Shown one piece after another: positions 16,345 to 35,036 of a stretch of 64,000 bases of DNA. Source of the DNA: Tautonia plasticadhaerens (GTDB lineage Bacteria > Planctomycetota > Planctomycetia > Isosphaerales > Isosphaeraceae); NCBI RefSeq assembly GCF_007752535.1, contig NZ_CP036426.1, positions 4,526,001 through 4,590,000 of the forward strand. The letters are read 5' to 3'. Within the stretch, counting starts at the first letter, position 1, and each line of letters opens with the position of its first letter. The notes beneath the pieces are model-generated. The model was given only the letters and a program-made list of their open reading frames with translations, was not told the DNA's origin and made no database searches. A program made the translations under genes and the position numbers.

Positions 16345-19300
16345 TCACCCGGACGGGTCGGACTCGGGGGCCGATCGCCAGAGGCGGACCGACCCGTCGT
16401 GGCAGCTGGAGACGAGGGTGCGGCCGTCGGGGGAGAAGGCCAGGGCATTGACCTGCTGCTGATGCCCCTCCAGGGTCAGCACCTCCTGGCCGGCGACCGG
16501 GTCCCAGACGCGGATGGTCCGGGAGACCCCGGCGGCGGCCAGCGCCCGGCCGTCGGGGCTGAACGCCAGGGCGAGGATCTCCCCCTCGTCCCCCCGGAGC
16601 ACGTCGGATCGCGTCCAGGTTTCCGTGTCGAGCAAGTGGACCGCCCCCGCCTCGTCGGCCACGGCGAGCAGGCGGCCGTCGGGGCTGAACTCCAGGGTCG
16701 TGTAGGCGTCGGAGCGGTCGAGCACGACCCGGCCGGTCCGGGTCTCCAGGTCCCAGAGCCGGACCACCCCGCCGTTGTCGCAGGAGGCCAGGGATCGGCC
16801 GTCGGGGCCGAAGGCGACCCGACGCACGGTCTCGCCGGAGCCGGACAGGACCATCAGCCGACGACGGGACCCGACGTCCCAGACCTGGATCGTCCGGTCC
16901 GAGCCGGAGGAGGCGAGCAGGCACCCGTCGGGGCTGAAGGCGACCGTCCGGACCTTGTCCGCGTGGCCGACCAGATCGGCGACCAGGTCGCCCGTCCCCG
17001 GGTCCCAGAGCCGGAGATTCTCCCCCGCCTCCAGGCCGGCCGAGGCCAGCAGGCCCCCGCAGGGGCTGAAGGCCAGGGCGCAGACCGTCCCCCAGCCGTG
17101 GGCGTCCCATCCCCGGACCAGCCGGCCGGTGGCCACGTCCCAGAGCTTCAAGGTCGACGGATCGTCGGGGGTGTCCGACCCGGTGGCGAGCAGGAGGCCG
17201 TCGGGGCTGAAGGCGACCCCCCACGCCTCGTCCAGGTGCCCGGCGGGCTGGGGGGGGACGGCCGGCGGGTCGAGCTTCCAGCGCCGGAGGTCCTGGCCGG
17301 TGGCGATGATCACGCTCCGGCCGTCGGGCGAGAAGGCCAGGTCGCTGACCGCGCGATCCCCGTCGGGATAGGTCGCCAGCACCGAGCCGACCCGGCTGCA
17401 CCGGATCGTCGTCGGTTCGAGGTAGCCGGTCGTGTTCCAGAAGCTCAGGGCCAGCAGGAGGCCGTCGGGGGAGAGGGCGACCCGGGCGACGGTGCCCCGG
17501 ACCCGGCGGTCCGCCGCCCGGAGGACCAGCGGCTCCCCCCCCGACCGCCGGAGCACGGTGACCGCCCCGTCCTGGTCGACCAGCGCGGCCGCCGCGCCGC
17601 AGGCGGAAACGACGGGCCTCGTCAGCGGGGTGGCGGCGGTCGCCCGGGAGAGGATCGCCCCGGTCGTCGCACACCGGAGGCTGAACTCGCCCCGGTCGTC
17701 GCACACGGCCAGGGTCCCGCCGTCGAGCGAGACCGACACCGCGATCGGCCGACCGGGGGGGGCGGGGAGGGCCCGGATCGGGCGGCCGTCCCTCGGGTCG
17801 AGCAGGGCGAGGCGCCCGGGGGCGGCCTCCACCACGAGGCCCCCGAGCGCGATGCATGCGTCCTCGGCGACTGGGATCGTCGCCACCGGGACGGGACGTT
17901 CGGGTTCGACGACCGACCAGACCCGGAGGAACTTCCCCCCCCCGACGGCCGCCCAGGCCCCGGCGAACAGGTCGGCCGCGGGGAAGCCGAACCCGAGGGG
18001 CGGCCCCTCGGCCTCGTCGGGGGCGAACCGGCAGAGGAACCGCCCGGTGAGGCCGTCCCACATCGCCAGGCCGAGCCGACGATCGACGCCCGTCCCGTCG
18101 GTCTCGTTCGAGGCCACCAACCGGCCGTCGGGGGAGAACACCGGGTAGGTCGCGCCCCGGATCGCGCCGGTCAGCTCGATCGGGGCGTCCGGGTCCTCGG
18201 GTCGGTGGAGGATCAGCGTCTCCCCCTTCCCGACCGAGGCGACCGCGCCCTCTCGGGGATCGACGGCCAGCTGGATCACCCGCCGACGGTGCCCGCGGAG
18301 GGCGTCGATCTCGCGGCCGGCCTGGAGCCGGAGGTAGTCCCGGACGAAGCCGCCGGCGCCGGGCCCGTCCTGGAGGTGTCGGAGGTCGTCGAGGATGTCC
18401 ATGGCCCGCTCGACTTCCCCCCGGTTCAACGCGTCGTCGGCCTGCTTCAGCCGGGCGGCGCCGAAGCGGCGGTCGGCGATCTCCCGCTGGTGCGTCTCCC
18501 GGGAGGCGATCCGTTCCAGCTCCAGGCGGTGGGAGGAGAGGACGGCGTCCCGGGCGACCAGGACGCCGAAGGCCAGCGTCGCCAGGGTGGCCAGCAGGGC
18601 AAGGCCCGAGGCCCGGAGCGGCCGCCGTCGGGCCCAGAGGCGGAGGTGCTCCGAGGCCGAGGCCGGCCGGGCCGAGATCGGCTCGCCGGCGAGCCAGCGG
18701 CGGAGGTCGGCCGCCAGGGCCGAGGCCGATTCGTACCGCCGCGCCGGCTCCTTCCTCAGGCAGGTCAGGCAGATCGTCTCCAGGTCCCGGGGCAGGCCGG
18801 GGCGGAGCAGCCGGGGGGGGACCGGCTCCTCGGAGAGGACCAGGGCGATGGTCTCCATCTGGCACTCGCCCCGGAACGGCGGCCGGCCGGTGAGGATCTC
18901 GTAGAGGATGGCCCCCAGGCCGTAGACGTCGGCCGCCGGGCCGACCTCCCGGTGCCTGCCGGCGGCCTGCTCGGGGCTCATGTACGAGGGGGAGCCCATC
19001 GGCACGCCGCTCCTGGACTCCTCGCCGGCCTCCCGGATCAGCTTGGCCAGGCCGAAGTCGGCCAGCCGGGGGGTGGGCAGCCCGGGGTTCACCCCGCCGC
19101 CGTCGACCCCCTGGAGCAGCACGTTCCCGGGCTTCAGGTCGCGGTGCAGGACCCCCCGGTCGTGGGCATGCTGCACCGCCTCGGCCATCTCGGCCGTCAA
19201 CGCGGCCGCGTCCCCCGGGGGGAGGGGATCGATCCGCTGCCGGAGCCAGGCGGAGAGGGTCGGGCCGTCGACGAAGGCGGCCGCCAGGAAGCAGAGCGGC

Positions 19301-23598: not shown

Positions 23599-25292
23599 GG
23601 CGATCGGGCATCCTGGGGGCCGGGCCGGGGGGGCCCGAGCACCCGGTAGAGGAGGTGGTCCGGGCCCATCGCGACCGGGGGGGCCAGCACCCCGGAGTCC
23701 TCGAGGTCGTCGAACAGGCCCCGGGTCACGGCGGGAGAGAACCCATAACCCCCCGGCCGGTCGTGCCGGGCGATCTCGACCCAGTCGACATAGACGTGGG
23801 TCACGCCCATCCGGTCCAACTGCGCACGGATCTCCCCCGGCGACCTGCCGGCGACGATCCCCTCGATCCGCTCCCGGTCGAAGACGGTGTTGTAGAGCAC
23901 CGGCCGGTCGACCGGGAAGACTCCCGCCTGGCCGACGAGCAGGGGCTTCGCGCCGGGCGGCAGGCTCGCGTCGAGCCGGGCCAGCGGCGGATTCGCGGCC
24001 TCGGCGGCCGCCCGTCGGAGGCGGCCCAGGTCGCCCGTCCCGTCGGTCGGCCCGCAGAGCGGCGTGGTGATGAACACGAGGTTGGCCAGGACGGGGAGGG
24101 CCGTGACCAGCGCCAGCCATCCCGGCCAGGGGCGTGATCGGGTCCAGTCGGCCCCCAGGCCCGCCAGCACCGCCGCCGCCGGCAGGAGCGGGAGCCAGAA
24201 GCGGTCGAGCCGATGGGTCAACAGGAACCAGGTGGCGAACAGGTACAGGACATACGCCCCCAGGACGGCGGCAAACCCCCGGGATCCCCTCCTCAGGAAC
24301 GCCAGCGGCACGAGCAGCAGATAAAGCGGCGAGTGCCAGTCGGACCGCCCCGCTACGTCGATCACGGCCGAGGCGAGGGCCCCGCCGGTGGCGGGCCGGG
24401 GGCCGTGGGCGGCCCACCACTTGGCGTCGAGCCCGGGATCCCAGTCGAGCCCGCCGAAGATCCCGAAGGCGAGCGGGTAGACCGGGTTCCCGGTGTCCGC
24501 CAGGTTGCGGATCAGCCAGGGCCCCACCCCCACCGCCACCCCCACCGCGAAGGCCGCCGCGATCCGCCACGACCGACGACGCCCCGCCTCGGCCGCCGCC
24601 ACGAGGCCGAACGGCACGACCGCCGAGACGAGCCCCGGGTACTTGCAGGCCATCGCCCCCCCCGCCAGCAACCCCGCGAACCCCCAGGGGGCCCAGGGTC
24701 GGGGGCCGAGACCCTCCCGGGCCGTCCACCCCGACGCCGCCACGAACACCAGGGCCGCATGGAAACCGCAGAGCGGGCCCTCGACGAACGGGAAGGTCCC
24801 CAGGCGGAAGACCCAGGGGGTCGTCAGGTAGACCAGGGCGGCGAACCAGGCCGCCCGGGGGGAGCCCCACCGCAGGGCCGTCGCGGCCACGAGGGCGGCC
24901 GTCGCCGGGGCGAAGGCGGCGACCAGGAGCTGACCGGCCAGGGCGCCGAGCCACCAGTCGTCGAGCACGGTCATCCCCAGCAGGTGGAGCATCTCCACGC
25001 CCGACGGCATGCTCGTATAGACGTTATGCGGCAGGAAGGCGATCCGCCCGGCCTGGTAATACTCCTTGGGCCCTTGGAGGTGGTACTCCAGCGCGTCGAA
25101 CTCGATCGTCGGCTGCATCGCCCCCAGGGCCATCAGGCCGAGCACCGGGCCGAGGATCAGGCCGAGCCCGACCAGGGGCCAGGGGAAGCGCCGGCCCGGT
25201 CCGGCCCCACCTCGCCGGACGCGGGGAGGGGGTCGAAATGCGGGAAGAGTTCGGGGACGACGGGCCTTGCGCCCGGTCGACGGGTCCCTCAC
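23595..25292 (-). CDS. GT-C membrane glycosyltransferase, probably the main part of a split gene
   Basis: A 565-residue polytopic protein of the GT39/PMT type. After a basic, unstructured N-terminus and a first helix (39-58) comes the acidic motif PTIEFDALEYHLQGPKEYY (61-79, Asp66/Glu69), followed by LPHNVYTSMPSG, a pattern common in bacterial GT-C proteins. About nine more helices and a soluble C-terminal domain follow. GTG 25292 shares a GTGA overlap with the upstream membrane gene. In similar proteins I know, the segment before the acidic motif contains further helices like those encoded upstream, and the two frames are joined by a -1 shift at the ten-G tract 25304-25313. I therefore suspect a single original gene. 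Confidence 0.82.
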   Translation of the reverse strand: MRDPSTGRKARRPRTLPAFRPPPRVRRGGAGPGRRFPWPLVGLGLILGPVLGLMALGAMQPTIEFDALEYHLQGPKEYYQAGRIAFLPHNVYTSMPSGVEMLHLLGMTVLDDWWLGALAGQLLVAAFAPATAALVAATALRWGSPRAAWFAALVYLTTPWVFRLGTFPFVEGPLCGFHAALVFVAASGWTAREGLGPRPWAPWGFAGLLAGGAMACKYPGLVSAVVPFGLVAAAEAGRRRSWRIAAAFAVGVAVGVGPWLIRNLADTGNPVYPLAFGIFGGLDWDPGLDAKWWAAHGPRPATGGALASAVIDVAGRSDWHSPLYLLLVPLAFLRRGSRGFAAVLGAYVLYLFATWFLLTHRLDRFWLPLLPAAAVLAGLGADWTRSRPWPGWLALVTALPVLANLVFITTPLCGPTDGTGDLGRLRRAAAEAANPPLARLDASLPPGAKPLLVGQAGVFPVDRPVLYNTVFDRERIEGIVAGRSPGEIRAQLDRMGVTHVYVDWVEIARHDRPGGYGFSPAVTRGLFDDLEDSGVLAPPVAMGPDHLLYRVLGPPRPGPQDARSP

Positions 25293-25897
25293 CCGGTCTC
25301 CGGCCCCCCCCCCGAGGACGGGGGATCGGGTCGGGAGGCCTCACGCATGGGCAAGAGGACGCGAAGCCGGCTGGCCAACCAGGCCACCAGCAGCAGCCCC
25401 AGGCCGATCCTCGTCGGCCGGGGCGAGAGCCAGCCGAGCCGGCCCGCCCCCAGGGTGAGGCTCGCCAGCAGGGTCGAGCCGGAGGCGAAGGCGAGCGGCC
25501 ACCGGGCCAGCCCCGGGAAGCTCGAGGCCAGGCCGAGGCCCCGCATCGTCACGTCCCCCAGGGCGAGGGCGGCCCCGCCGATCAGCAGGGCGGCGAGCAC
25601 GATCGGCAGCCGCTGGCGGAGGTGTCCCGCATCGGAGAGATTCGCCAGCGCCCGCGAGAGGTGGTCGTCGGCGGTGAGCAGGAAGTCCCCCCTGCGGAGG
25701 CTGGGGAGACCGGACGCCCCTCCCGGACCGTCGCCGGCCCGGGCCCGGGCGTCGAGGCGCTGGGCCTCGACGCTCGGCAGCGGGACGGCGAGGAGCCAGA
25801 TCAGCGCGGCCAGTTGCAAGACGGCGACCAGGGCGACCGCCCAGGGCCCCCGGCCCGGGCCCGGCGGGGGTGTCAGAGCGTCGGCCCGATCGACCAC
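25289..25897 (-). CDS. Four-helix membrane protein, probable N-terminal part of the next glycosyltransferase
   Basis: A 202-residue protein with helices at about 18-39, 97-115, 131-150 and 163-182 and a polar loop (41-95) that contains a GDFLLTADDHLSRAL stretch. The last two helices and the GAGRLGWLSP turn resemble the N-terminal membrane part of large GT-C glycosyltransferases. The C-terminus ends in three glycines encoded by ten Gs, then Pro-Glu-Thr-Gly and a stop that overlaps the start of the following glycosyltransferase. It overlaps the end of the altronate dehydratase gene by 25 bases. As a free-standing protein I do not recognise it. Confidence 0.7.
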   Translation of the reverse strand: MVDRADALTPPPGPGRGPWAVALVAVLQLAALIWLLAVPLPSVEAQRLDARARAGDGPGGASGLPSLRRGDFLLTADDHLSRALANLSDAGHLRQRLPIVLAALLIGGAALALGDVTMRGLGLASSFPGLARWPLAFASGSTLLASLTLGAGRLGWLSPRPTRIGLGLLLVAWLASRLRVLLPMREASRPDPPSSGGGPETG

Positions 25898-27450
25898 GGG
25901 GCGAACTCCTCCTCGCCGACGCCCGCCGACTCGCTCCTCGTCTGCGAGCCGCCGGCCACGTCCAGGATCAGGTCGAACAGGCGTCGGCCGACCGACTCGA
26001 CCGGCTCCCCGGCCAGCACGGTCCCGGCGTCGAGGTCCATGTCCTCCCGGAGCCGGTCATACATCGGGGTATTCGTGGCCACCTTCACCGTCGGGGTCGG
26101 CTTCAGGCCGGAGACGCTCCCCCGGCCGGTGGTGAAGACGAGCACGTTGCACCCCCCCGCGGCCAGGCCGGTCAGGCTCACCGGGTCGTAGCCGGGGGTG
26201 TCCATGAACAGGAAGCCGGGCCTGGTGATCGGCTCGGCGTACCCGAGCACGTCGACCAGGGCGGTCGAGCCCCCCTTGGCCACGGCGCCGAGCGACTTCT
26301 CGTAGATCGTCGTCAGCCCCCCCTCCTTGTTACCGGGGGAGGGGTTATTGTTGATCTCGGCCCCGAAGACGCCGGTGTACCACTCCCACCATTTGATGCG
26401 ATCGACCAGCTTCCGCCCGACCTCCTCGCTGACAGCCCGTCGCGTGAGCAGGTGCTCGGCCCCGTAGATCTCGGGCGTCTCGGCGAGGACGGCGGAGCCC
26501 CCCTGGGCCACGATCAGGTCGGCGGCCACGCCGAGGGCGGGGTTCGCGGTAACCCCGGAGTTCCCGTCGGAGCCGCCGCACTCCAGGCCGACGACGAGCT
26601 TCGAGGCCGGTTGCTCCGTCCTTCGCCAGTCGTTGGCGGCGGGCATCAGGCGGTGGACGGCCTCGACGGCCGCCTCGACCGTCCGGGCGATGCCGCCCTC
26701 CTCCTGGATGTTCAGGACCCGGGGGCGGGCGGGATCGACCGGACGGCCGCCCTCCCGGGCGCTCCCCAGGGTGACGAGGTCCCGGGACTCGACCAGGTGG
26801 CCGGCGAAGCCGACCTCGCAGCCGAGGCCGATCAGGACGTAACCGGCCACGTTCGGGTGGTTGGCGAATCCGGCCAGGACGCGTTGGAGCTGCCGGTGGT
26901 CGGGCCCCTCGAACTGGAGCCCGCAGCCCCCCTTGTGGGTGATGGCGAAGACGCCGTCGAGGTTGGGATATTCGCGTTTCCAGGAGCCGTCCCGGAAGCG
27001 GTCGGCCACGTACTTCGAGACGCTGGCCGAGCAGTTCACCGTGCTGATGACCGCCAGGTAGTTCCTCGTGCCGACCCGGCCGTCGGGCCTGAGGAAGCCG
27101 GGGAAGGTGCGCAGACGGTCGGCGACCGGGGCCTCGGGCCGCTCCGAGGCGAAGGCATAGTCGCGCTCGAACAGGTCGGCCCGGACGTTGTGGACGTGCA
27201 CCCAGGTCCCGGCGGGGATGGCGACCGAGGCGAAGCCGATGATCTGCCCGTACTTGAGCACGGGGGCCCCTTCCGGGATGTCGACCACGGCCATCTTGTG
27301 CCCCGGGCGGATCGGCCCCCGGGCCTCGACCTCCAGGCCGTCGACCGGGACGGCGGCCCCCTGCGGGATCCCCCTGGCCGCGACGGCCACGTTGTCGCTC
27401 TCCCGTAACCGGACCGCCGCCGGTGCTCGATCGCCGATCGCCGTCGCCAT
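25873..27450 (-). CDS. uxaA: Altronate dehydratase (UxaA family)
   Basis: A 525-residue UxaA-type dehydratase, which removes water from D-altronate to give 2-keto-3-deoxygluconate in galacturonate breakdown; relatives act on galactarate or other aldonates. An N-terminal SAF domain (about 10-95, with GHKMAVVDIPEGAPVLKYGQ) is followed by the large catalytic part with GTRNYLAVISTVNCSA, HKGGCG, GLGCEVG and ECGGSDGNSGVTANPA. Full length and undamaged. No uronate isomerase or mannonate gene is nearby. The downstream membrane gene overlaps it by 25 bases, so transcription may be shared though the functions differ. Confidence 0.92.
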   Translation of the reverse strand: MATAIGDRAPAAVRLRESDNVAVAARGIPQGAAVPVDGLEVEARGPIRPGHKMAVVDIPEGAPVLKYGQIIGFASVAIPAGTWVHVHNVRADLFERDYAFASERPEAPVADRLRTFPGFLRPDGRVGTRNYLAVISTVNCSASVSKYVADRFRDGSWKREYPNLDGVFAITHKGGCGLQFEGPDHRQLQRVLAGFANHPNVAGYVLIGLGCEVGFAGHLVESRDLVTLGSAREGGRPVDPARPRVLNIQEEGGIARTVEAAVEAVHRLMPAANDWRRTEQPASKLVVGLECGGSDGNSGVTANPALGVAADLIVAQGGSAVLAETPEIYGAEHLLTRRAVSEEVGRKLVDRIKWWEWYTGVFGAEINNNPSPGNKEGGLTTIYEKSLGAVAKGGSTALVDVLGYAEPITRPGFLFMDTPGYDPVSLTGLAAGGCNVLVFTTGRGSVSGLKPTPTVKVATNTPMYDRLREDMDLDAGTVLAGEPVESVGRRLFDLILDVAGGSQTRSESAGVGEEEFAPWSIGPTL

Positions 27451-27552
27451 GCCCCGCCCCCGCTGACCCCACCCCTTCGGATCCCGGATCGTCCCCCGTC
27501 CAGTCTATTGCCCGCCCCCCGTCGCCGCGAGGCGGTTCGGCCGGGCGGGGGA

Positions 27553-28185
27553 TCAGGCGCGATCGGCGGGGCGGGCCCCGTAGGAGTGCAGGTGCCCCAG
27601 GAGCTGGTCGACCACGGTCCGCAGGGGGGCCACCGACCCTCGGGTCTTCGCCAGCAGGATGCCGCCCTGGATCGCGGCGAGGCAGAACTCGGAGAGGGCC
27701 TCGGGGTCGGCGTCGGCCCGGAGCAGGCCGGCGGCCCGCATCGTCGAGAGGCCCCGGCCGAGGTGGCCCCGCCAGCGCCCGAAGTAGCGCTCGATCTCCT
27801 CCCGGACCTCCGGGTCGTGGTCCGCCATCTCGTAGGCGATCCGGCCGATGGGGCAGCCGGGGCAGCACCGGAGGTCGTGGGAGGCGGCCATCGCCTCGAA
27901 CCAGTCCCGGAGCCCGTCCCACGACCCGAGCCCGGCGAGCAGCGCCCCCTGGGACTCGAAGACGCGGTCGGCCCGGTCCCTCAGGGCGGCCCGGACGAGG
28001 GACTCCTTGCTGCCGAAGTGGTGGTAGAACTGCCCCTTGCCCGTCCCGGAGGCCTCCAGGATGTCGTCGACGCTCGTGGCGTGGACCCCCTTCGAGTGGA
28101 ACAGGTCGGTCGCCGCCCGCAGGATCGTCTCCCGGGTCCGGCGGCCCCGAGCGGTCGGGGAGGTGGGTGTCTGGGATTTGCTCAT
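27553..28185 (-). CDS. TetR-family transcriptional regulator
   Basis: A 210-residue repressor-type protein. The helix-turn-helix is at about 17-62 (RETILRAATDLFHSKGVHAT, then DDILEASGTGKGQFYHHFGSKE). The C-terminal ligand domain begins with a CCPGCPIG motif, as in the LmrA/YxaF-type regulators. ATG 28185 overlaps the stop of the upstream YkgJ-type gene as ATGA, so the regulator is translationally coupled to it and may control that pair. The altronate dehydratase gene lies 102 bases downstream and is another possible target. Confidence 0.92.
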   Translation of the reverse strand: MSKSQTPTSPTARGRRTRETILRAATDLFHSKGVHATSVDDILEASGTGKGQFYHHFGSKESLVRAALRDRADRVFESQGALLAGLGSWDGLRDWFEAMAASHDLRCCPGCPIGRIAYEMADHDPEVREEIERYFGRWRGHLGRGLSTMRAAGLLRADADPEALSEFCLAAIQGGILLAKTRGSVAPLRTVVDQLLGHLHSYGARPADRA

Positions 28186-28970
28186 GATTCCACATCACAG
28201 TCGGTCGATCCGCCGCCGTCCCCCCGGATCCGGCCGGCGGGGGCATCAACCCCCCCGAGCGCCGAGGCGAGGGCCACGTCCAGCGGCATCATCGAGCCCG
28301 GGTCGAGGTGCCCCGCCGTCCATCGCGACAGGGCGACCCGGGCGGCCCCCCAGATGACATCATAGCGGACCAGTCGGAGCGAAGAATCCTCGACCTCGGG
28401 ATCGGCCCGGTAGCGCCGGCAGATCTCGACGTCGGTCGAGTTCTCCCGCCGGCAGTTCACCGGGCGGGCCTCGTAGGCCCGGCATCGGCCCCCCGCCTCG
28501 TCGAGCAGCGGGCAGGGCCTCCGGACCCGGGCCAGCGCCTTCGGGTCGTCGGCGATCTGCCGGAACCGGGCCGACTCGCCCTCGAGCCGGGCACGAAGGG
28601 CCGCAACTTCCTCTGCCGACCAGCGGCCCCGGACGTAATCGGCCAGGGTCAGGGCCTCCAGCCCCGTCACGGCGACGTGCTGGTAGCAGCAGTGGGCACA
28701 TCCCGTCGCGCAGGCGGGCTCCGGCGCGATCGGCAGGCCGGCGTCGGCCGATCGTCGCCTCCACATGGCGTCCCGCTCGGCCGCCCAGGCGTCGACGATC
28801 CGGTAGAGCCGCCCGAGCGGGGGATCCCCCGGGAGGGGGGGGAGGAGGGCGTCCAGCCGCCCCAGGAGTTCCGAGACGAGTCCCTCCAGCGACCAGCCGT
28901 CCCTCGCCGGGCGTGACCGGAGCCTCCGGGCTCGAGGACGTCGGCGGTGGGGGCGTCGGGGGCGTGACAC
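28182..28970 (-). CDS. YkgJ-family cysteine-cluster protein (metal-chelating)
   Basis: A protein of the YkgJ/CxxCxxCC family, small metal-binding proteins of unclear role. The two Cys clusters are plain: ACATGCAHCCYQHV and CPLLDEAGGRCRAYEARPVN followed by C and a later C. The family usually binds Fe or Zn. The start is uncertain: I give GTG 28970, the only good upstream start, which puts a very basic 20-residue leader before the conserved part; a start nearer residue 24 of this call, using a rare codon, is possible. Its stop overlaps the TetR start (ATGA). Confidence 0.8.
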   Translation of the reverse strand: MSRPRRPHRRRPRARRLRSRPARDGWSLEGLVSELLGRLDALLPPLPGDPPLGRLYRIVDAWAAERDAMWRRRSADAGLPIAPEPACATGCAHCCYQHVAVTGLEALTLADYVRGRWSAEEVAALRARLEGESARFRQIADDPKALARVRRPCPLLDEAGGRCRAYEARPVNCRRENSTDVEICRRYRADPEVEDSSLRLVRYDVIWGAARVALSRWTAGHLDPGSMMPLDVALASALGGVDAPAGRIRGDGGGSTDCDVES

Positions 28971-29010
28971 GGTGCTCGGCCTCGGTGCAGGGGGGGCGGG
29001 CGGCGGGCCG

Positions 29011-29289
29011 TCAGGCCAGTGGGCTCTCCCCGGCGAAGACGGCGCGGAAGCGGCCGGGGGCGTCGGCGTCGGGGGAGACGTGGTCGATGGCGAGATCCCC
29101 GGTCCGGCCGTCCTCCAGCATGAGTGTGTACATGATGCCCGGGCGGACGGCGTCCTCCTCCGAGACGACGAGGTAGCCGTTCCAGTTCGGCTTCGTCCCG
29201 TCCTGGGCGCCGAGGTACTCGATGTAGACGTTGGCGGGCGAGAGGCAGGGCTCGGGCCCGTCGAGCAGCCGTCCTCGGAAGTGGTGCAT
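29011..29289 (-). CDS. Small protein of unknown function, 92 residues
   Basis: A compact, well-composed small protein (MHHFRGRLLDGPEPCLSPAN start, then VYIEYLGAQDGTKPNWNGYL) with no signal peptide, helix or known motif. Asp/Glu/Gly content and predicted alternating strands suggest a small beta fold. It lies 40 bases downstream of the chosen YkgJ start and 115 bases from the stop of the TIM-barrel isomerase gene, all on one strand. I judge it real because its composition is unlike the Arg/Pro-rich false frames around it. Confidence 0.65.
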   Translation of the reverse strand: MHHFRGRLLDGPEPCLSPANVYIEYLGAQDGTKPNWNGYLVVSEEDAVRPGIMYTLMLEDGRTGDLAIDHVSPDADAPGRFRAVFAGESPLA

Positions 29290-29404
29290 GGTCCGGTCCT
29301 CAGCGGGGGAAGCGGCCGGGGGGTGCGGCCCGATCCCGCGTCGGGGTCGGGCGCGGGATCGGGGCGGGCCGTCGGGGTGCGGCCCGCCCCTTCGAGGGCC
29401 GGGG

Positions 29405-30331
29405 TCAGAACGAGTCGCACTCGATGTAGGCGTTGATCACGGCGAGCTCGCCCTCCTTGCCGGGGCGGGAGTTGCCGTGCTCCATGCCGAGGATGCCGTC
29501 GAAGCCCCTCCCGTGGATGTGCTTGAAGATGTTCCGATAGTTCATCTCGCCGGTGGTCGGCTCCTTCCGGCCGGGGTTGTCCCCCGTCTGGAAGTAGGCG
29601 ACCTCGGACCAGGCGGTGTCGATGTTGGGGATGATGTTCCCCTCGCTGATCTGCTGGTGGTACATGTCGAAGAGGATCTTGCAAGACGGGTGCCCGACCG
29701 ACTTGCAGACGAGGTACGCCTGCGGGATCTGCCAGAGGAACAGCTCGGGGTGGTTGGCGTAATGGTTCAGGGGCTCCAGGACCATGACCAGGCCGCTCGG
29801 CTCGCAGAGGTCGCAGCAGCGCTTGAGCAGCTCGACGACGTTCACCGTCTGGTAGTCCAGCGGCAAGCGGTGGTCGAAGATGCCGGGGACGACCGTGGTC
29901 CACTTCGCGTTGACCCGCTTGGCCGTCTCGACGGCCTGCTTGACGTCGGCCAGCACCTTCTCGGCGGAGTCGGGGTTCCCGGAGGCGAAGGTCGGCTCCT
30001 CGAAGCTCCCGGTGGCGACGAAGACCCCCATCTCCAGGCCCAGTCGCCCCATCTCCCGGGCGATCTGCTCCTGCTCCTCGACGGGCCGCCGCATCATGCC
30101 GTTGTCCTCGAGGGCGCGGAAGCCGACGTCCTTGATGAACTTCAGCTCGTCGATCACCCCGCCGGGGGCGTGGGCGCGGAACATGTCGAAGTGCGGCGCG
30201 TACTTCAGCCTGAAGTCGTGATGAGGGGCCTCTCCGGAGGTGTCCTGCCCGGCGGCGGCGGGGGAGGCGGCCCCCAGGGAGGCGCCGGCGGCCAGGCCGG
30301 CGGCGACGAACTCTCGGCGGTTGATCGACAT
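29405..30331 (-). CDS. Second hydroxypyruvate isomerase-like TIM-barrel protein with Tat signal
   Basis: A 308-residue exported TIM barrel of the Hyi/xylose-isomerase-like superfamily. The Tat signal is clear: NRREFVAAGLAAGASLGAAS at 4-23 then a PAAAGQ cleavage region. Candidate metal-site segments are VMVLEPLNHY, CKILFDMYHQQ, YFQTGDNPGRKEP and GILGMEHGN. It differs clearly from the first homologue (3935-4831) in the barrel core, so the two are old paralogues. It is transcribed divergently from a glycosyltransferase gene 359 bases away. Substrate unknown; extracytoplasmic location suggests a role other than central metabolism. Confidence 0.85.
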   Translation of the reverse strand: MSINRREFVAAGLAAGASLGAASPAAAGQDTSGEAPHHDFRLKYAPHFDMFRAHAPGGVIDELKFIKDVGFRALEDNGMMRRPVEEQEQIAREMGRLGLEMGVFVATGSFEEPTFASGNPDSAEKVLADVKQAVETAKRVNAKWTTVVPGIFDHRLPLDYQTVNVVELLKRCCDLCEPSGLVMVLEPLNHYANHPELFLWQIPQAYLVCKSVGHPSCKILFDMYHQQISEGNIIPNIDTAWSEVAYFQTGDNPGRKEPTTGEMNYRNIFKHIHGRGFDGILGMEHGNSRPGKEGELAVINAYIECDSF

Positions 30332-30690
30332 GGAGAGGCTCGCTCGATTCGATTCGGGAAGAGTATCCGTCCGCCGCCCGGCCCTCCGGGCGGCGATCCG
30401 AATTCCCCCGAATGTACCACCGGGGGCGCCCGCGACAACGGCCCTGCGCCGGAGAGGGTCGGGATCTCATCCGGAGTCGCGGAGTCGCGGAGGGATCGGG
30501 GGAGGACCGGGCATCGCTCGGGGACCCCGGACCGCCCTTTCGGCTGGCTTCTCCCCGTCTCCGGGTGGGATCCCCCCTCCGGATCCGCCTTGGCAGGATC
30601 GGCCGATCGGCTAAGATCGCGGCCACCCATCGTCCGAGCCCCGCCGTGGCGACCCCCCGGCATCGGTCGAGATCCGTCAGGGAGGACGGC
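30332..30690. other. Divergent intergenic region
   Basis: It holds the promoters of the TIM-barrel gene (minus) and the glycosyltransferase operon (plus). An 8-base tandem repeat GGAGTCGC occurs twice and a half at 30473-30492. No gene is seen. A good promoter candidate is listed separately. Confidence 0.6.
30590..30617 (+). promoter_or_regulatory. Sigma70-like promoter for the glycosyltransferase/bi-kinase operon
   Basis: TTGGCA (30590-30595), a 16-base spacer, then TAAGAT (30612-30617), 74 bases before the start codon at 30691. It is among the best matches to a -35/-10 pair I see in the window. Confidence 0.5.
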
Positions 30691-31770
30691 ATGAAGGCCC
30701 TGGCACTGGTCGAGTCCCCCGACCACGTCTGTTGCCGATACCGGATCCGGCCCTTCGAGGCCGCCCTGGCGGGCCTCGGGTGGTCGCTGGCGGTGGAGGG
30801 GCTCGCCCGGGGGCCGGTCGCCAGACCGGCGCAACTGCGGGGGGCCCGGCGATTCGACGCGGTGATCCTCCAGCGGAAGCTGCCCTCGGCCTGGGAGTTC
30901 GAGGTCCTCCGACGGTCGAGCCGGCGACTCGTCTTCGACCTCGACGACGCCGTCTTCTGGCGGGACTCCTACCACCCCCGGGGGCAGCAGAGCGCCTCCC
31001 GATGGGCCCGATTCTCCCGGCTCGCCCGGCGGGCCGACGCGGTGATCGCCGGCAACGATTTCCTCGCCGGCCGGGCGCTGCGCGCCGGGGCCGGCGAGGG
31101 GGCCGTCCATCGCATCCCCACCTGCGTCGACCCCGCCCGCTATCCGATCCGGGAGCACGCGCCGGGCGCCCCGGTCCGACTGGCATGGATCGGCTCGTCG
31201 AGCACGATGCGGGGGATCGAGGGACGCCGGGACCTCTGGGACCGGATCGCCCGGGAGGTGCCGGGCATCCGGATGAGGGTCATCAGCGACCGGGCCCCCG
31301 ACCTGGGGGCGATGCCCGTCGAGTTCGTCCCCTGGTCCGAGGCGACCGAGGCCGCCGCCCTGGCGGAGTGCGACGCGGGGGTCTCCTGGACGCCGGACGA
31401 CCCCTGGAGCCGGGGCAAGTGCGGCCTCAAGGTGCTCCAGTACCTCGCCGCGGGCCTGCCCGTCGTGGCCAACCCGGTCGGCGTGCACGGGGAGATGGTG
31501 GCGAACGGCCGGTCGGGATTCCTGGTCGACTCGGACGACGACTGGCTCGTCGCCGTCGGCCGGCTCGCCGACGATGCCGACCTCCGGCGCCGGTTGGGCC
31601 GGGAGGCCCGGGGGGCGGTCGAGCGGGATTTCTCGGCCGACCGCTGGGCGTCCCGGTTCGCCGAGGTGGTGACGGGCCGGGCGGTCGGCTCGACGCCCCG
31701 GCCCCGCCTCGGGCCGGGGGATGTCCGTGGCGCGTGTCGCCCGGGACCGGCCGGGGGCTCTCGGCGATGA
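30691..31770 (+). CDS. GT4-like glycosyltransferase
   Basis: A 359-residue GT-B glycosyltransferase. The N-terminal domain begins with KALALVESPDHVCCRYRIRP; the C-terminal domain has the usual pattern with VRLAWIGSSSTMRGIE, a GKCGLKVLQYLAAGLPVVAN segment (nucleotide-sugar site) and GVHGEMVANGRSGFLV. GGGAGGACGGC precedes ATG 30691. The stop overlaps the start of the tandem kinase gene (ATGA), so the two proteins are coupled. Such pairs suggest building and phosphorylating a surface lipid glycan. Donor and acceptor unknown. Confidence 0.88.
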   Translation: MKALALVESPDHVCCRYRIRPFEAALAGLGWSLAVEGLARGPVARPAQLRGARRFDAVILQRKLPSAWEFEVLRRSSRRLVFDLDDAVFWRDSYHPRGQQSASRWARFSRLARRADAVIAGNDFLAGRALRAGAGEGAVHRIPTCVDPARYPIREHAPGAPVRLAWIGSSSTMRGIEGRRDLWDRIAREVPGIRMRVISDRAPDLGAMPVEFVPWSEATEAAALAECDAGVSWTPDDPWSRGKCGLKVLQYLAAGLPVVANPVGVHGEMVANGRSGFLVDSDDDWLVAVGRLADDADLRRRLGREARGAVERDFSADRWASRFAEVVTGRAVGSTPRPRLGPGDVRGACRPGPAGGSRR

Positions 31771-33566
31771 GCACGATCGACCAATCGCCCCGGACCCGGC
31801 CGGAAGCCCGTCCGACGGCCCCCGGGCCCGAGGGCCGGATCTTCCAGCCCCCGGACTGGGAATGGGCCCATGCCGGGGAGGTCGGCTGGTGGGTCCTCCC
31901 GGAGTGGCGAGGCGTCCTGCTGACGCCCGACGGGAGGCTCCGGCTGGACGAGTGGCGCGACCTCGGGCTGGTCGAGACGGTCAAGTCGGGCCCGCACCGG
32001 GTCGTCTGGCGGGTGGCGTTGCCGACCGGCGCCATCTACGTCAAGCAGTTCCTCGTGCCCACCTGGCGCGAGGTGCTCCGCCAGTGGTTCCGCCGCGGCA
32101 AGGGCCGGAACGAGGGGAAGCGGGCCCGGATGCTGGCGCGGATCGGCGTGCCGACCATCCGCCCGGTGGCCCTGGGGGAGCGTCGGGTCCGGAGGTTCCT
32201 GTTCGAGAACTTCCTGATCTCCCCGGAGATCGCCGACGCCACCCCGCTGGACCGCTTCCTCCGGGACGACCTGCCGGCCATGCCCCCCCGCCGGGCGGCG
32301 ATCGTCCGGCGTCGCGTGACGGTGGCGCTCGGCGCGCTCACCGCCCGCCTGCACGCCTGCGGCATGAGGCACGACGACTTCCACCCGGGGAATCTGCTGC
32401 TCCGGCTCGACGACGGCGACCGCCCCCGGCTGGCGATGATCGACCTGGACGCCCTCCGACTGGGCAAGCCGCTCGGGCCCCCCCAGGCGGCCTCGAACCT
32501 GGCCCGACTCAACCACGCCTCGCTGCTGCTGGCCTCGCGGGCCGATCGGCAGCGGTTCCTCGACGCCTACGTCGAGGCCCGGGGCGGCGAGATCGGCGAC
32601 CTGGCCCATTTCTCCCGACGCGTCGTCGGCCTGACCCGGCGCTGGGCCGAGCGGCTCTGGAGGCGACGGGCCCGCCGCTGCGTCGGCTCGAACCAGGACT
32701 TCGAGGCGATCCGACGCCGGGACCGCTGGGTCGTCTCCGGCCGATCCATCGACGCCACGACGCTCCATTCCCTGCTCGACGACCCGGACGCGCCGTTCTC
32801 CGACCCCTCGGCCGTGCTCCTGAAACACTCCCGGACGACCACGGTCGCCGAGCTGACCCTGCCGGTCGGCGGCCGGCCGACCCGGGTCGTCTACAAGCGA
32901 TTCAACCGCAAGAAGCGGCTCGAAGCCCTCCTGACGACCGTCCGGCCGTCCCGGGCCTGGCGGGCCTGGCGGGCGAACCACCACCTCCGGAGCCGGGGGC
33001 TTCCGACCCCCCCCGACTTGCTCGTCCTCGGCCGAGATGGGCGACGGGGGCCGATCCGGCTGCCGGCCGGGCCGACCGAGACGTACCTGATGACCGTCAA
33101 GGCCGAGCCGTCGACGACGCTGGCCGACTTCCTCCGGGAGGCGCTGCCGAGTCTCCCCGAGGGGGATCAACTGGCGATCCGTCGACGGCTCGCCTCGTCG
33201 CTCGGCCGGCTGCTCCGGGACCTGCACGAGCGCTGCCTGTCCGACCGGGATCTGAAGGCGTCGAATATCCTGATCGAGGGGGACCCCGGGGCGACCCGGC
33301 CGAGCCTGAGCCTGATCGACCTGGTGGGCGTCCGGCTCATCAGCCCGCTGCCGGAGGATCGCCGGATCCAGAACCTCGCCCGCCTGCTCGCCAGCCTGGC
33401 GGAACAGCCGGGGTGGTCGAGGACCGATTCGCTCCGCCTGCTGCGGGCGTACCTGCCCCAGCACGAGGCGGCGGCCGGTCGCTGGAAAGCGACCTGGCGG
33501 CGAATCTCCCGCCGGATCGACCGCAAGCGCGCCCGGAACCGGCGGCGGGGCCGCCCGATGTCCTGA
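31767..33566 (+). CDS. Tandem WaaP/Kdo-kinase-like protein with two kinase domains
   Basis: A 599-residue protein made of two lipopolysaccharide-kinase-like domains. Domain 1 (about 65-290) has Lys93 (IYVKQF), the catalytic loop HDDFHPGN (202-209) and the metal Asp226 (MIDLDAL). Domain 2 (about 345-560) has Lys377 (VYKRF), the loop SDRDLKASN (492-500) and Asp518 (LIDLVGV). Both keep the residues expected for catalysis. WaaP/KdkA relatives phosphorylate heptose or Kdo of the LPS core; here the target is unknown. No membrane helix; the ends are basic, suiting the inner face of the membrane. It overlaps the preceding glycosyltransferase gene. Confidence 0.85.
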   Translation: MSTIDQSPRTRPEARPTAPGPEGRIFQPPDWEWAHAGEVGWWVLPEWRGVLLTPDGRLRLDEWRDLGLVETVKSGPHRVVWRVALPTGAIYVKQFLVPTWREVLRQWFRRGKGRNEGKRARMLARIGVPTIRPVALGERRVRRFLFENFLISPEIADATPLDRFLRDDLPAMPPRRAAIVRRRVTVALGALTARLHACGMRHDDFHPGNLLLRLDDGDRPRLAMIDLDALRLGKPLGPPQAASNLARLNHASLLLASRADRQRFLDAYVEARGGEIGDLAHFSRRVVGLTRRWAERLWRRRARRCVGSNQDFEAIRRRDRWVVSGRSIDATTLHSLLDDPDAPFSDPSAVLLKHSRTTTVAELTLPVGGRPTRVVYKRFNRKKRLEALLTTVRPSRAWRAWRANHHLRSRGLPTPPDLLVLGRDGRRGPIRLPAGPTETYLMTVKAEPSTTLADFLREALPSLPEGDQLAIRRRLASSLGRLLRDLHERCLSDRDLKASNILIEGDPGATRPSLSLIDLVGVRLISPLPEDRRIQNLARLLASLAEQPGWSRTDSLRLLRAYLPQHEAAAGRWKATWRRISRRIDRKRARNRRRGRPMS

Positions 33567-33631
33567 ACCCGAATGCCGAGCTGCTCCGCACCCGACCGAT
33601 TCCACACCCCCGGCGAGGAGGGCCGCCCCCG

Positions 33632-34708
33632 ATGACGCGACGATCCCGCTCCGATCGCCCGACCCCGGCCCCGGACCGGCCGTCCCCCCCGGCCCGGATC
33701 GCCCGCCTCGTCCTCGTCCTGGGGATCCTCGCCGCGACCGGGTGTTCCACGCTTCCGACCCGGGATCCGGCGATCGGATCGACCGGCAACCCGCTGATCC
33801 CGACGCGGCACCAGGCCCGGGTCGGCGCGTTCCGGGTCTCCTCGAACGTGCCGATCGAGGAGGACGACCCCGCCCTGGAGGCACTGGCCGGCCTGGAGGG
33901 CAGGCTGGGGCGCGTGCTCGGCCTCCGGGCCCCGGACGCCGACCCGCCGATCGACGTGTACATCCTCGATGATGAGCACGCCTTCACCACGTTCCTCACC
34001 TTCCACCACCCCGAGCTCCCCACCCGTCGCGCCTTCTTCCTGGCCGCCGGCGAGGAGGCGGCCGTCTACACCGCCCGGGGCGAGCACCTCGAGGAGGACC
34101 TCCGCCACGAGGCCACCCACGCGCTGCTCCACCGGGCCGGGGGCGAGGTGCCGCTCTGGCTCGACGAGGGACTCGCCGAGTACTTCGAGGTCGAGCCGGG
34201 GACGCTCGCCCCGGAGGCCGTCGCCCGGTTCCGCAAGCTCGCCTCGGCCTATCGGGACGGCTGGCGGCCGGATCTGGCGCGCCTCGAAGCGCTCGACGAC
34301 GTGGCCGCCATGAGCCCGACCGACTACCGAGAAGCCTGGGCCTGGACCCTGCTCCTGCTGCACGGCCCCGGCCGTGACGAGCTGGTGGCGCACCTCGATC
34401 GGCTTCGCACCGACCCGGGCATCTCCCCGGCGCTCTCGGAGTCGATCCGGGCCGACCTCGCCACGCTCAACCGCCAGTTCCTCGCCCGGGTCGCCCCGGG
34501 CAAGGCCGACCCGGACGGCTCCCCCCGGCTGACCCGGCTCCAGAGCCCCCCCGCGTCGGCCCCCCGCCGGGTCGTCCTCCCGGCCGATCCGCCCCGGACG
34601 GTGACTGTCGAGCCGGCCCCCCCCCTTCAGGGATTCTTCGGCCGGGTGCGGTCGGGGATCGGGGACTTCCTCGGCCTCAGCCCTTCGTCGCGACGGGGAC
34701 CCGGTTGA
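33632..34708 (+). CDS. Putative lipoprotein with HExxH zinc-peptidase motif
   Basis: A 358-residue exported protein. A basic, Pro-rich start and helix (24-35) end in a lipobox-like ATGC, with Cys38 as the likely lipidated residue. The metalloprotease motif is HEATH (159-163), followed by LDEGLAEYFE (178-187), whose Glu would be the third zinc ligand, as in gluzincins and the DUF1570 group. It lies 65 bases after the bi-kinase gene on the same strand. Its 3' end overlaps the convergent dehydratase gene by 32 bases. Whether it is an active peptidase is inferred from the motif only. Confidence 0.82.
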   Translation: MTRRSRSDRPTPAPDRPSPPARIARLVLVLGILAATGCSTLPTRDPAIGSTGNPLIPTRHQARVGAFRVSSNVPIEEDDPALEALAGLEGRLGRVLGLRAPDADPPIDVYILDDEHAFTTFLTFHHPELPTRRAFFLAAGEEAAVYTARGEHLEEDLRHEATHALLHRAGGEVPLWLDEGLAEYFEVEPGTLAPEAVARFRKLASAYRDGWRPDLARLEALDDVAAMSPTDYREAWAWTLLLLHGPGRDELVAHLDRLRTDPGISPALSESIRADLATLNRQFLARVAPGKADPDGSPRLTRLQSPPASAPRRVVLPADPPRTVTVEPAPPLQGFFGRVRSGIGDFLGLSPSSRRGPG

Positions 34709-35036
34709 TCTTCGCCGCCAGGATGAAGTCGTTCTCCGACAGCCCGCCGATGGCGTGCGTCGTCAGCTCGATCGCCAGGTTCCGGTAGCCGACGAGGTGC
34801 AGGTCGGGGTGATGCCCCTCCTCCTCGGCCAGCTCGGCGACGTTGTTCAGGAACGCCATCGCCGCGACGAAATTCTTCGCCGTCCATTCCCGGCGGATGA
34901 CCTTGCCGTCGGCCGAGATGGCCCAGCCCTCAACGTTCGAGGCCAGCTCCTGAGCCTCCTTCGAGGACAGGGGCGGGACGCCTCCCTCGCAGGGGGCACA
35001 CTTCTTCTTCGTGAGTTGCTCGGCGGTGGTCGTCAT
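34677..35036 (-). CDS. phhB: Pterin-4a-carbinolamine dehydratase
   Basis: A 119-residue PCD/DCoH enzyme that recycles the pterin cofactor of aromatic amino-acid hydroxylases, or supports molybdopterin-type metabolism. The family motif is EEGHHPDLHLVGYRNLAIEL with the catalytic histidines, followed by THAIGGLSENDFILAAKI. A short Cys-containing N-terminal stretch (KKKCAPCEGGVPPL) is typical of bacterial members. Complete and of normal length. It converges on and overlaps the lipoprotein gene at the 3' end. Confidence 0.93.
   Translation of the reverse strand: MTTTAEQLTKKKCAPCEGGVPPLSSKEAQELASNVEGWAISADGKVIRREWTAKNFVAAMAFLNNVAELAEEEGHHPDLHLVGYRNLAIELTTHAIGGLSENDFILAAKINRVPVATKG

Follow-up and report, generated by a model that had tools for sequence, protein, structure and literature searches.

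A tandem Kdo/WaaP-family kinase in Tautonia plasticadhaerens and across the Planctomycetota: a candidate two-site kinase for a surface sugar

Introduction

The subject of this study is a group of three consecutive genes of Tautonia plasticadhaerens (family Isosphaeraceae, phylum Planctomycetota), which encode a GT4-like glycosyltransferase (P0001), a protein with two successive kinase domains of the Kdo/WaaP family PF06293 (P0002), and a probable lipoprotein (P0003). The genes lie in a stretch of 64,000 nucleotides of the 9.4 Mb genome, here called the window (contig NZ_CP036426.1, positions 4,526,001 to 4,590,000; G000:C1:4526001-4590000 in our numbering). As judged from the relatives that we could identify, the double kinase is an old and widespread protein of the phylum, and it is likely to place two phosphates on a surface sugar. 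The explanation that we favor, and that we regard as rather likely, is a two-site accessory kinase for sugars of the lipopolysaccharide (LPS) core that would work together with the GT4-like transferase. The coordinates and reading frames of the three genes had been given in a preliminary description of this DNA and proved correct; the features are, in window positions:

30691-31770, plus strand: P0001, GT4-like glycosyltransferase of 359 aa, with Pfam group-1 glycosyltransferase families above cut-off
31767-31770, plus strand: ATGA stop/start overlap of the glycosyltransferase and kinase genes, as seen in the sequence
31767-33566, plus strand: P0002, tandem Kdo/WaaP-family kinase of 599 aa, with two PF06293 stretches
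31944-32666, plus strand: kinase domain 1 (residues 60-300), with K93, alphaC E116, H202, D204, N209 and D226
32814-33536, plus strand: kinase domain 2 (residues 350-590), with K377, D495, N500 and D518, and A400 in place of the alphaC Glu
33567-33631: gap of 65 bases between the kinase and lipoprotein genes
33632-34708, plus strand: P0003, probable lipoprotein of 358 aa, DUF1570, with a zinc-peptidase-like motif HExxH...WLxEGxAE

The overlap of the first two genes suggests that they are translationally coupled, as had been proposed, and the lipoprotein gene does follow the kinase gene at the distance described and does carry both parts of the zinc-protease motif.

Results

Both halves of P0002 are WaaP-family kinase domains by sequence, in agreement with what had been supposed before. 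Scored separately against PF06293, they reached 59 and 39.8 bits (cut-off 21.3), and they are 35% identical to each other over 144 aa. For the residue analysis, 65 tandem kinases were aligned, namely the protein of the window, 31 others of the family and 33 from outside the family; the selection, which went by similarity to the tandem query, favors intact proteins. Profiles built from the 65 rows matched most of the length of Escherichia coli WaaP, with 110.9 bits for domain 1 and 89.4 bits for domain 2, and matched E. coli WaaY weakly (25.2 and 11.1 bits, respectively). The best match of a 25-sequence profile in the PDB was the Pseudomonas aeruginosa WaaP/RfaP structure 6dfl (6e-35), followed by TP53RK (5e-17). 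In domain 1, the ATP-site Lys, the alphaC Glu, the Asn and the metal Asp are present in 65/65 rows, and the catalytic position is Asp in 60 and Glu in five; in domain 2, the Asn is found in all 65 rows and the Lys, the catalytic Asp and the metal Asp in 64 each. By a simple count against the relative at locus L032, dN/dS was 0.145/1.19 for domain 1 and 0.152/1.23 for domain 2, and comparisons of both domains with three congeners gave dN values of 0.14-0.16 and dS values of 0.5-1.4. The earlier claim of two complete kinase sites can thus be retained for Lys, catalytic Asp, Asn and metal Asp, and has to be corrected for the alphaC Glu, which domain 2 lacks.

The tandem kinase proved to be an old arrangement that extends across the phylum rather than a local oddity. 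P0002 matches were present in 44/45 genomes of the family, some of them partial at contig ends, and in 26/26 of the good ones; the order comprises the same 45 genomes. At the level of the phylum, 214/392 genomes had a match at a threshold of 1e-5, or 110/217 when only good genomes were counted. A draw of 59 phylum genomes that were at least 90% complete, partly shared with the 392-genome survey, contained 54 genomes with PF06293 matches above cut-off, and two matches occurred in one frame in at least 15 of them, or at least 16 if the Tautonia genome is counted. A protein of Tautonia sociabilis is 75% identical to P0002, and its locus was the single one returned by a contig scan with this one protein. 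No match to the tandem kinase was obtained by tblastn of plasmid records.

A tree of 95 domains was calculated from 41 first and 40 second domains of 41 of the 65 tandem proteins (the degenerate second domain of L013 was omitted), 13 single-domain proteins, and E. coli WaaP. All 40 second domains formed one clade, with a support of 99/91 and in 200/200 bootstrap trees, which fits one old fusion. The first domains did not form a clade, as E. coli WaaP and five of the 13 single-domain proteins fell among them, with the other eight forming a separate clade; Tautonia's own single-domain WaaP was on the branch of E. coli WaaP, unseparated from the first domains. One old fusion that predates the split of the sampled families would therefore be the simplest account of these sequences, and since the first domains are not a clade of their own, losses or splits may have followed later. 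A recent duplication in this genome was considered and rejected on the grounds of the low identity of the two domains and the single phylum-wide clade of second domains.

Conservation of the gene order, on which the preliminary description had made its reading depend, was found within the family. The glycosyltransferase gene is directly upstream of the kinase gene on the same strand in 39/43 family loci, the lipoprotein gene is downstream in 39/43, and both partners are present in 36/43. Six of the seven loci that miss a partner reach, or almost reach, the end of the contig on the side concerned, and the sole family locus without glycosyltransferase and lipoprotein genes despite room on the contig is L125 (G397), whose kinase is 44% identical. 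The tandem kinase of another genome (L131, G403) is divergent, with residues 15-272 and 388-599 matching separately in one 753-codon frame, and it retains both partners. Of the 34 family loci tested for it (43 in total), 19 allow a 4- or 1-base overlap of the glycosyltransferase and kinase genes. The flanking genes vary between family genomes, with some recurring blocks, and these varied flanks support the trio as a conserved unit. For genomes outside the family, we examined 27 loci in which the kinase had a match, some of them not tandem. The lipoprotein gene follows the kinase gene in two of them (L085, L134), and a close relative of the glycosyltransferase adjoins the kinase in L088, L089 and L094 (E < 1e-120) and, by clustering, in L097, in all four cases downstream of the kinase rather than upstream; the full trio was found in 0/27. 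By this comparison of loci, the complete unit of three genes is confined to the family, and elsewhere only parts of it recur.

The glycosyltransferase P0001 scored above the cut-offs of PF13692, PF13524 and PF00534. Classical GT4 enzymes contain an EX7E motif, which P0001 lacks: Gly242 and Gln250, both invariant in 42/42 aligned rows, occupy the positions of the two Glu residues of WaaG, to which P0001 is not closely related (25.8 bits). A segment GKCxxKxLQY is nearly invariant, and within GKCxxKxLQ the G, K, C, K and Q are identical in 42/42 rows. The downstream protein P0003 matched DUF1570 marginally (23.2 bits, cut-off 22) and Peptidase_MA_2 below cut-off. It shares HExxH...WLxEGxAE with DUF1570 and Peptidase MA superfamily proteins, and the motif residues H, E, H, W, E, G and E are invariant in 42/42 rows; with HExxH and the downstream Glu, it has the zinc-peptidase motif of the MA superfamily and can be considered a putative peptidase. 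No sequence relative of P0003 was found in the PDB. Its designation as a probable lipoprotein is based on a Cys that follows a hydrophobic stretch. A simple lipobox pattern was recognized in 23/42 lipoprotein rows, some perhaps by chance and with start codons that are not fixed, and several of the 19 non-matching rows still have a Gly-Cys after a hydrophobic stretch.

A link to LPS biosynthesis is suggested by the gene neighborhoods of relatives outside the family. A gene of the heptosyltransferase family GT9 lies within 10 kb of the tandem kinase gene, by distances derived by hand, in 10/20 such genomes, with 0.41 expected, and in 6/12 when counted by taxonomic family. The corresponding P of about 1e-12 assumes independent genomes, which these are not, and is post hoc, as the GT9 test was picked after heptosyltransferase-like genes had been seen in some of these loci. 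Several of these loci also hold genes for a single-domain Kdo/WaaP-family kinase and for GT2 and GT4 enzymes, and around some relatives there is an O-antigen-ligase-like gene, as labeled by eye. The Tautonia genome itself encodes a WaaA-type Kdo transferase, five GT9 proteins, and LpxK beside a single-domain WaaP, which makes an LPS-type acceptor plausible. The latter two belong to a separate locus:

L136:3783-12113 (G000:C1, about 4705800-4714100): LPS-core locus of the Tautonia genome, with genes for LpxK, GT9, epimerase, PMT_2, single-domain Kdo/WaaP kinase, GT4 and nucleotidyl transferase

The single-domain kinase of this locus reads HKDLYLCH...IDLHR and thus keeps the WaaP acceptor residues. 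The ordinary WaaP role therefore seems to be filled, and additional phosphates are the most likely contribution of the tandem kinase, comparable to those added by WapP and WapQ of P. aeruginosa (PMC8005017).

By its sequence scores, the tandem kinase is a member of PF06293 without being a WaaP proper. P0002 reached 90.4 bits over two stretches with the NCBIfam RfaP equivalog, below the cut-off of 170 bits, and 46.6 bits with the Kdo kinase (KdkA) equivalog, below the cut-off of 142 bits. PF06293 as such is not specific to LPS kinases, as it matched in 12/14 control genomes at E 0.01 (8 of them above cut-off), including Gram-positive and archaeal ones, and in 5/14 at E 1e-5; genomes without LPS are among the controls with a match. 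The Tautonia genome has 17 PF06293 matches, 9 above cut-off, and most of the 17 are probably other kinases. A weak kinase match is also present elsewhere in the window (19063-19266, minus strand; 36% over 71 aa, within a 1187-codon frame), and this is perhaps an unrelated Ser/Thr-type kinase.

The genes that flank the trio both lie on the opposite strand and encode a xylose-isomerase-like protein (29405-30331) and a pterin-4a-carbinolamine dehydratase (34677-35036); to judge by this layout, the trio probably constitutes a separate small transcription unit. Window region 24134-30694 contains very long open reading frames on both strands, for example 28182-30692 on the minus strand (836 aa), which look like by-products of 71-75% G+C rather than genes. 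That the three genes are themselves a chance or antisense artefact was rejected in view of their conservation in relatives and of the dN/dS values.

Discussion

In the model that we prefer, P0002 would act in the cytoplasm as a Kdo/WaaP-family sugar kinase with two sites, and it would be translated together with the GT4-like transferase. At the inner face of the inner membrane, the transferase would add a sugar to the growing LPS core or to a related glycolipid, or would prepare that sugar, and the fused kinase domains would then use ATP to phosphorylate two hydroxyls, either on two sugars or at two positions of one, so that transferase and kinase would share one substrate. The phosphates would make the surface anionic, and divalent cations could bridge them. 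The tandem kinase would act beside, and not instead of, the single-domain WaaP, much as the several heptose kinases of P. aeruginosa do. The lipoprotein would be an exported companion that probably acts on envelope proteins; this role is a guess, and what ties P0003 to the kinase chemistry is its conserved adjacency. Of the earlier proposal, two phosphorylations of an LPS-type core thus remain the leading reading, in a gene order that is conserved in the family, and the inclusion of the lipoprotein is the part that has only adjacency in its favor.

The closest known counterpart is WaaP/RfaP, the heptose(I) kinase of E. coli and P. aeruginosa (6dfl), which belongs to the same PF06293 and shares its ATP-site residues with domain 1. 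E. coli waaG and waaP are also a transferase-kinase pair, with genes that overlap by 8 bases, like the overlap described here. P0002 differs from WaaP in having two domains per chain, in having no equivalents of the substrate-binding residues Y165 and H168, and in the missing alphaC Glu of domain 2, and also in that its genome encodes a separate single-domain WaaP. In P. aeruginosa, several LPS kinases (WaaP, WapP, WapQ, PA5006) are encoded together (PMC8005017, PMC8707732), but WaaP, WapP and WapQ are separate genes, unlike the fused P0002; PA5006, with at least 493 residues, may also be double. The heptose(II) kinase WaaY of E. coli has the D-x-H-x-G-N catalytic loop pattern of domain 1, but it is a single-domain protein with a much weaker overall similarity. 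We found no description of a tandem WaaP-type kinase, of planctomycete LPS kinases, or of planctomycete LPS-core phosphorylation in the open-licence text of PMC.

A number of observations, which we consider here together with the alternatives to which they relate, speak against a two-site LPS-core kinase. As many as 178/392 phylum genomes, many of the same class, are without a P0002 match at 1e-5. In P. aeruginosa WaaP, Y165, H168 and R191 are substrate-binding positions whose mutation stops growth (PMC6147952). At the positions of Y165 and H168, domain 1 has His (64/65) and Asn (65/65) and domain 2 has Lys (60/65) and Asn (65/65), and the position of R191 is Arg in just 10/65 first and 16/65 second domains. 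With Y165 and H168 replaced in both domains, the acceptor probably differs from that of WaaP. Furthermore, the other 10/20 genomes outside the family have no GT9 gene within 10 kb of the kinase, GT9 matches occur in 5/14 control genomes and are thus not a strict LPS marker, and the Tautonia operon, which lies between unrelated genes of the opposite strand, has its nearest GT9 gene in the LPS-core locus, at a distance of about 152 kb. The tandem kinase may therefore act on another surface polymer, such as an exopolysaccharide or another glycolipid, and not on the LPS core. The position of the operon outside the LPS-core locus, a glycosyltransferase of a group without EX7E, and the acceptor residues unlike those of WaaP would all fit; however, in half of the 20 genomes compared outside the family the relatives are linked to GT9 genes, and several relatives are linked to single-domain Kdo/WaaP-family genes, and we therefore regard this alternative as unlikely, if well worth keeping in mind.

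Other observations concern the question of whether both sites of the proposed LPS-core kinase are active. The alphaC Glu position of domain 2 is occupied by Ala (37), Ser (23), Gly (3), Glu (1) or Asp (1), and domain 2 may be a weak kinase or a regulatory domain. Five rows, all of family f46 (L019, L023, L024, L094, L097), read HGELHAEN in domain 1, with Glu for the catalytic Asp, and have the listed domain-2 residues intact; in a genome of the same class as Tautonia (G152; L013/L085), the domain-2 active site is lost, and a DUF1570-like lipoprotein still follows. An AlphaFold2 prediction of P0002 with one relative (L113) was too poor for use (mean pLDDT 47.6, pTM 0.33). The sequence variants would fit a protein in which only one half is an active kinase and the other half is regulatory or substrate-holding, positioning the glycolipid. 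Domain 2 nevertheless retains its Lys, catalytic Asp, Asn and metal Asp in 64-65 of the 65 rows, under a constraint about equal to that of domain 1, and according to PMC6147952, the alphaC mutant E78A of P. aeruginosa WaaP remained able to grow and showed a 128-fold shift of the minimal inhibitory concentration of EDTA. A single active half is thus, in our estimation, an improbable solution, on a par with the other surface polymer. Far less probable still is that the sugar-kinase family name is misleading and P0002 is a protein kinase. The DLKxxN loop of domain 2 does resemble that of Ser/Thr kinases, domain 2 as a single sequence matches TP53RK (5e-6) ahead of RfaP (2e-5) in the PDB, and many protein kinases are among the matches of the alignment profile (529 PDB sequences at 0.001). 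On the other hand, that profile places RfaP far ahead of TP53RK, the profiles of both domains match E. coli WaaP well, and the relatives sit among glycosyltransferase genes.

The presence of a Gram-negative type outer membrane in planctomycetes was long disputed (PMC3422733, in whose text the word kinase is absent). A wider scenario may be considered, with more doubt than the two-site kinase as such: a double LPS kinase that was fused once, early in the planctomycete radiation, that carries out two different phosphorylations on a core sugar of a type not seen in proteobacteria, with catalysis by domain 2 despite the missing alphaC Glu, and that in the family of Tautonia came to form an almost universal envelope trio with a glycosyltransferase without EX7E and a zinc-peptidase lipoprotein. 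P0002 would be a natural example of two phosphorylations within one protein, and it would put to the test whether activity persists in a kinase domain that has no alphaC Glu. A near-universal two-site LPS-type kinase in one family would, in addition, give a direct genetic handle on the outer-membrane question.

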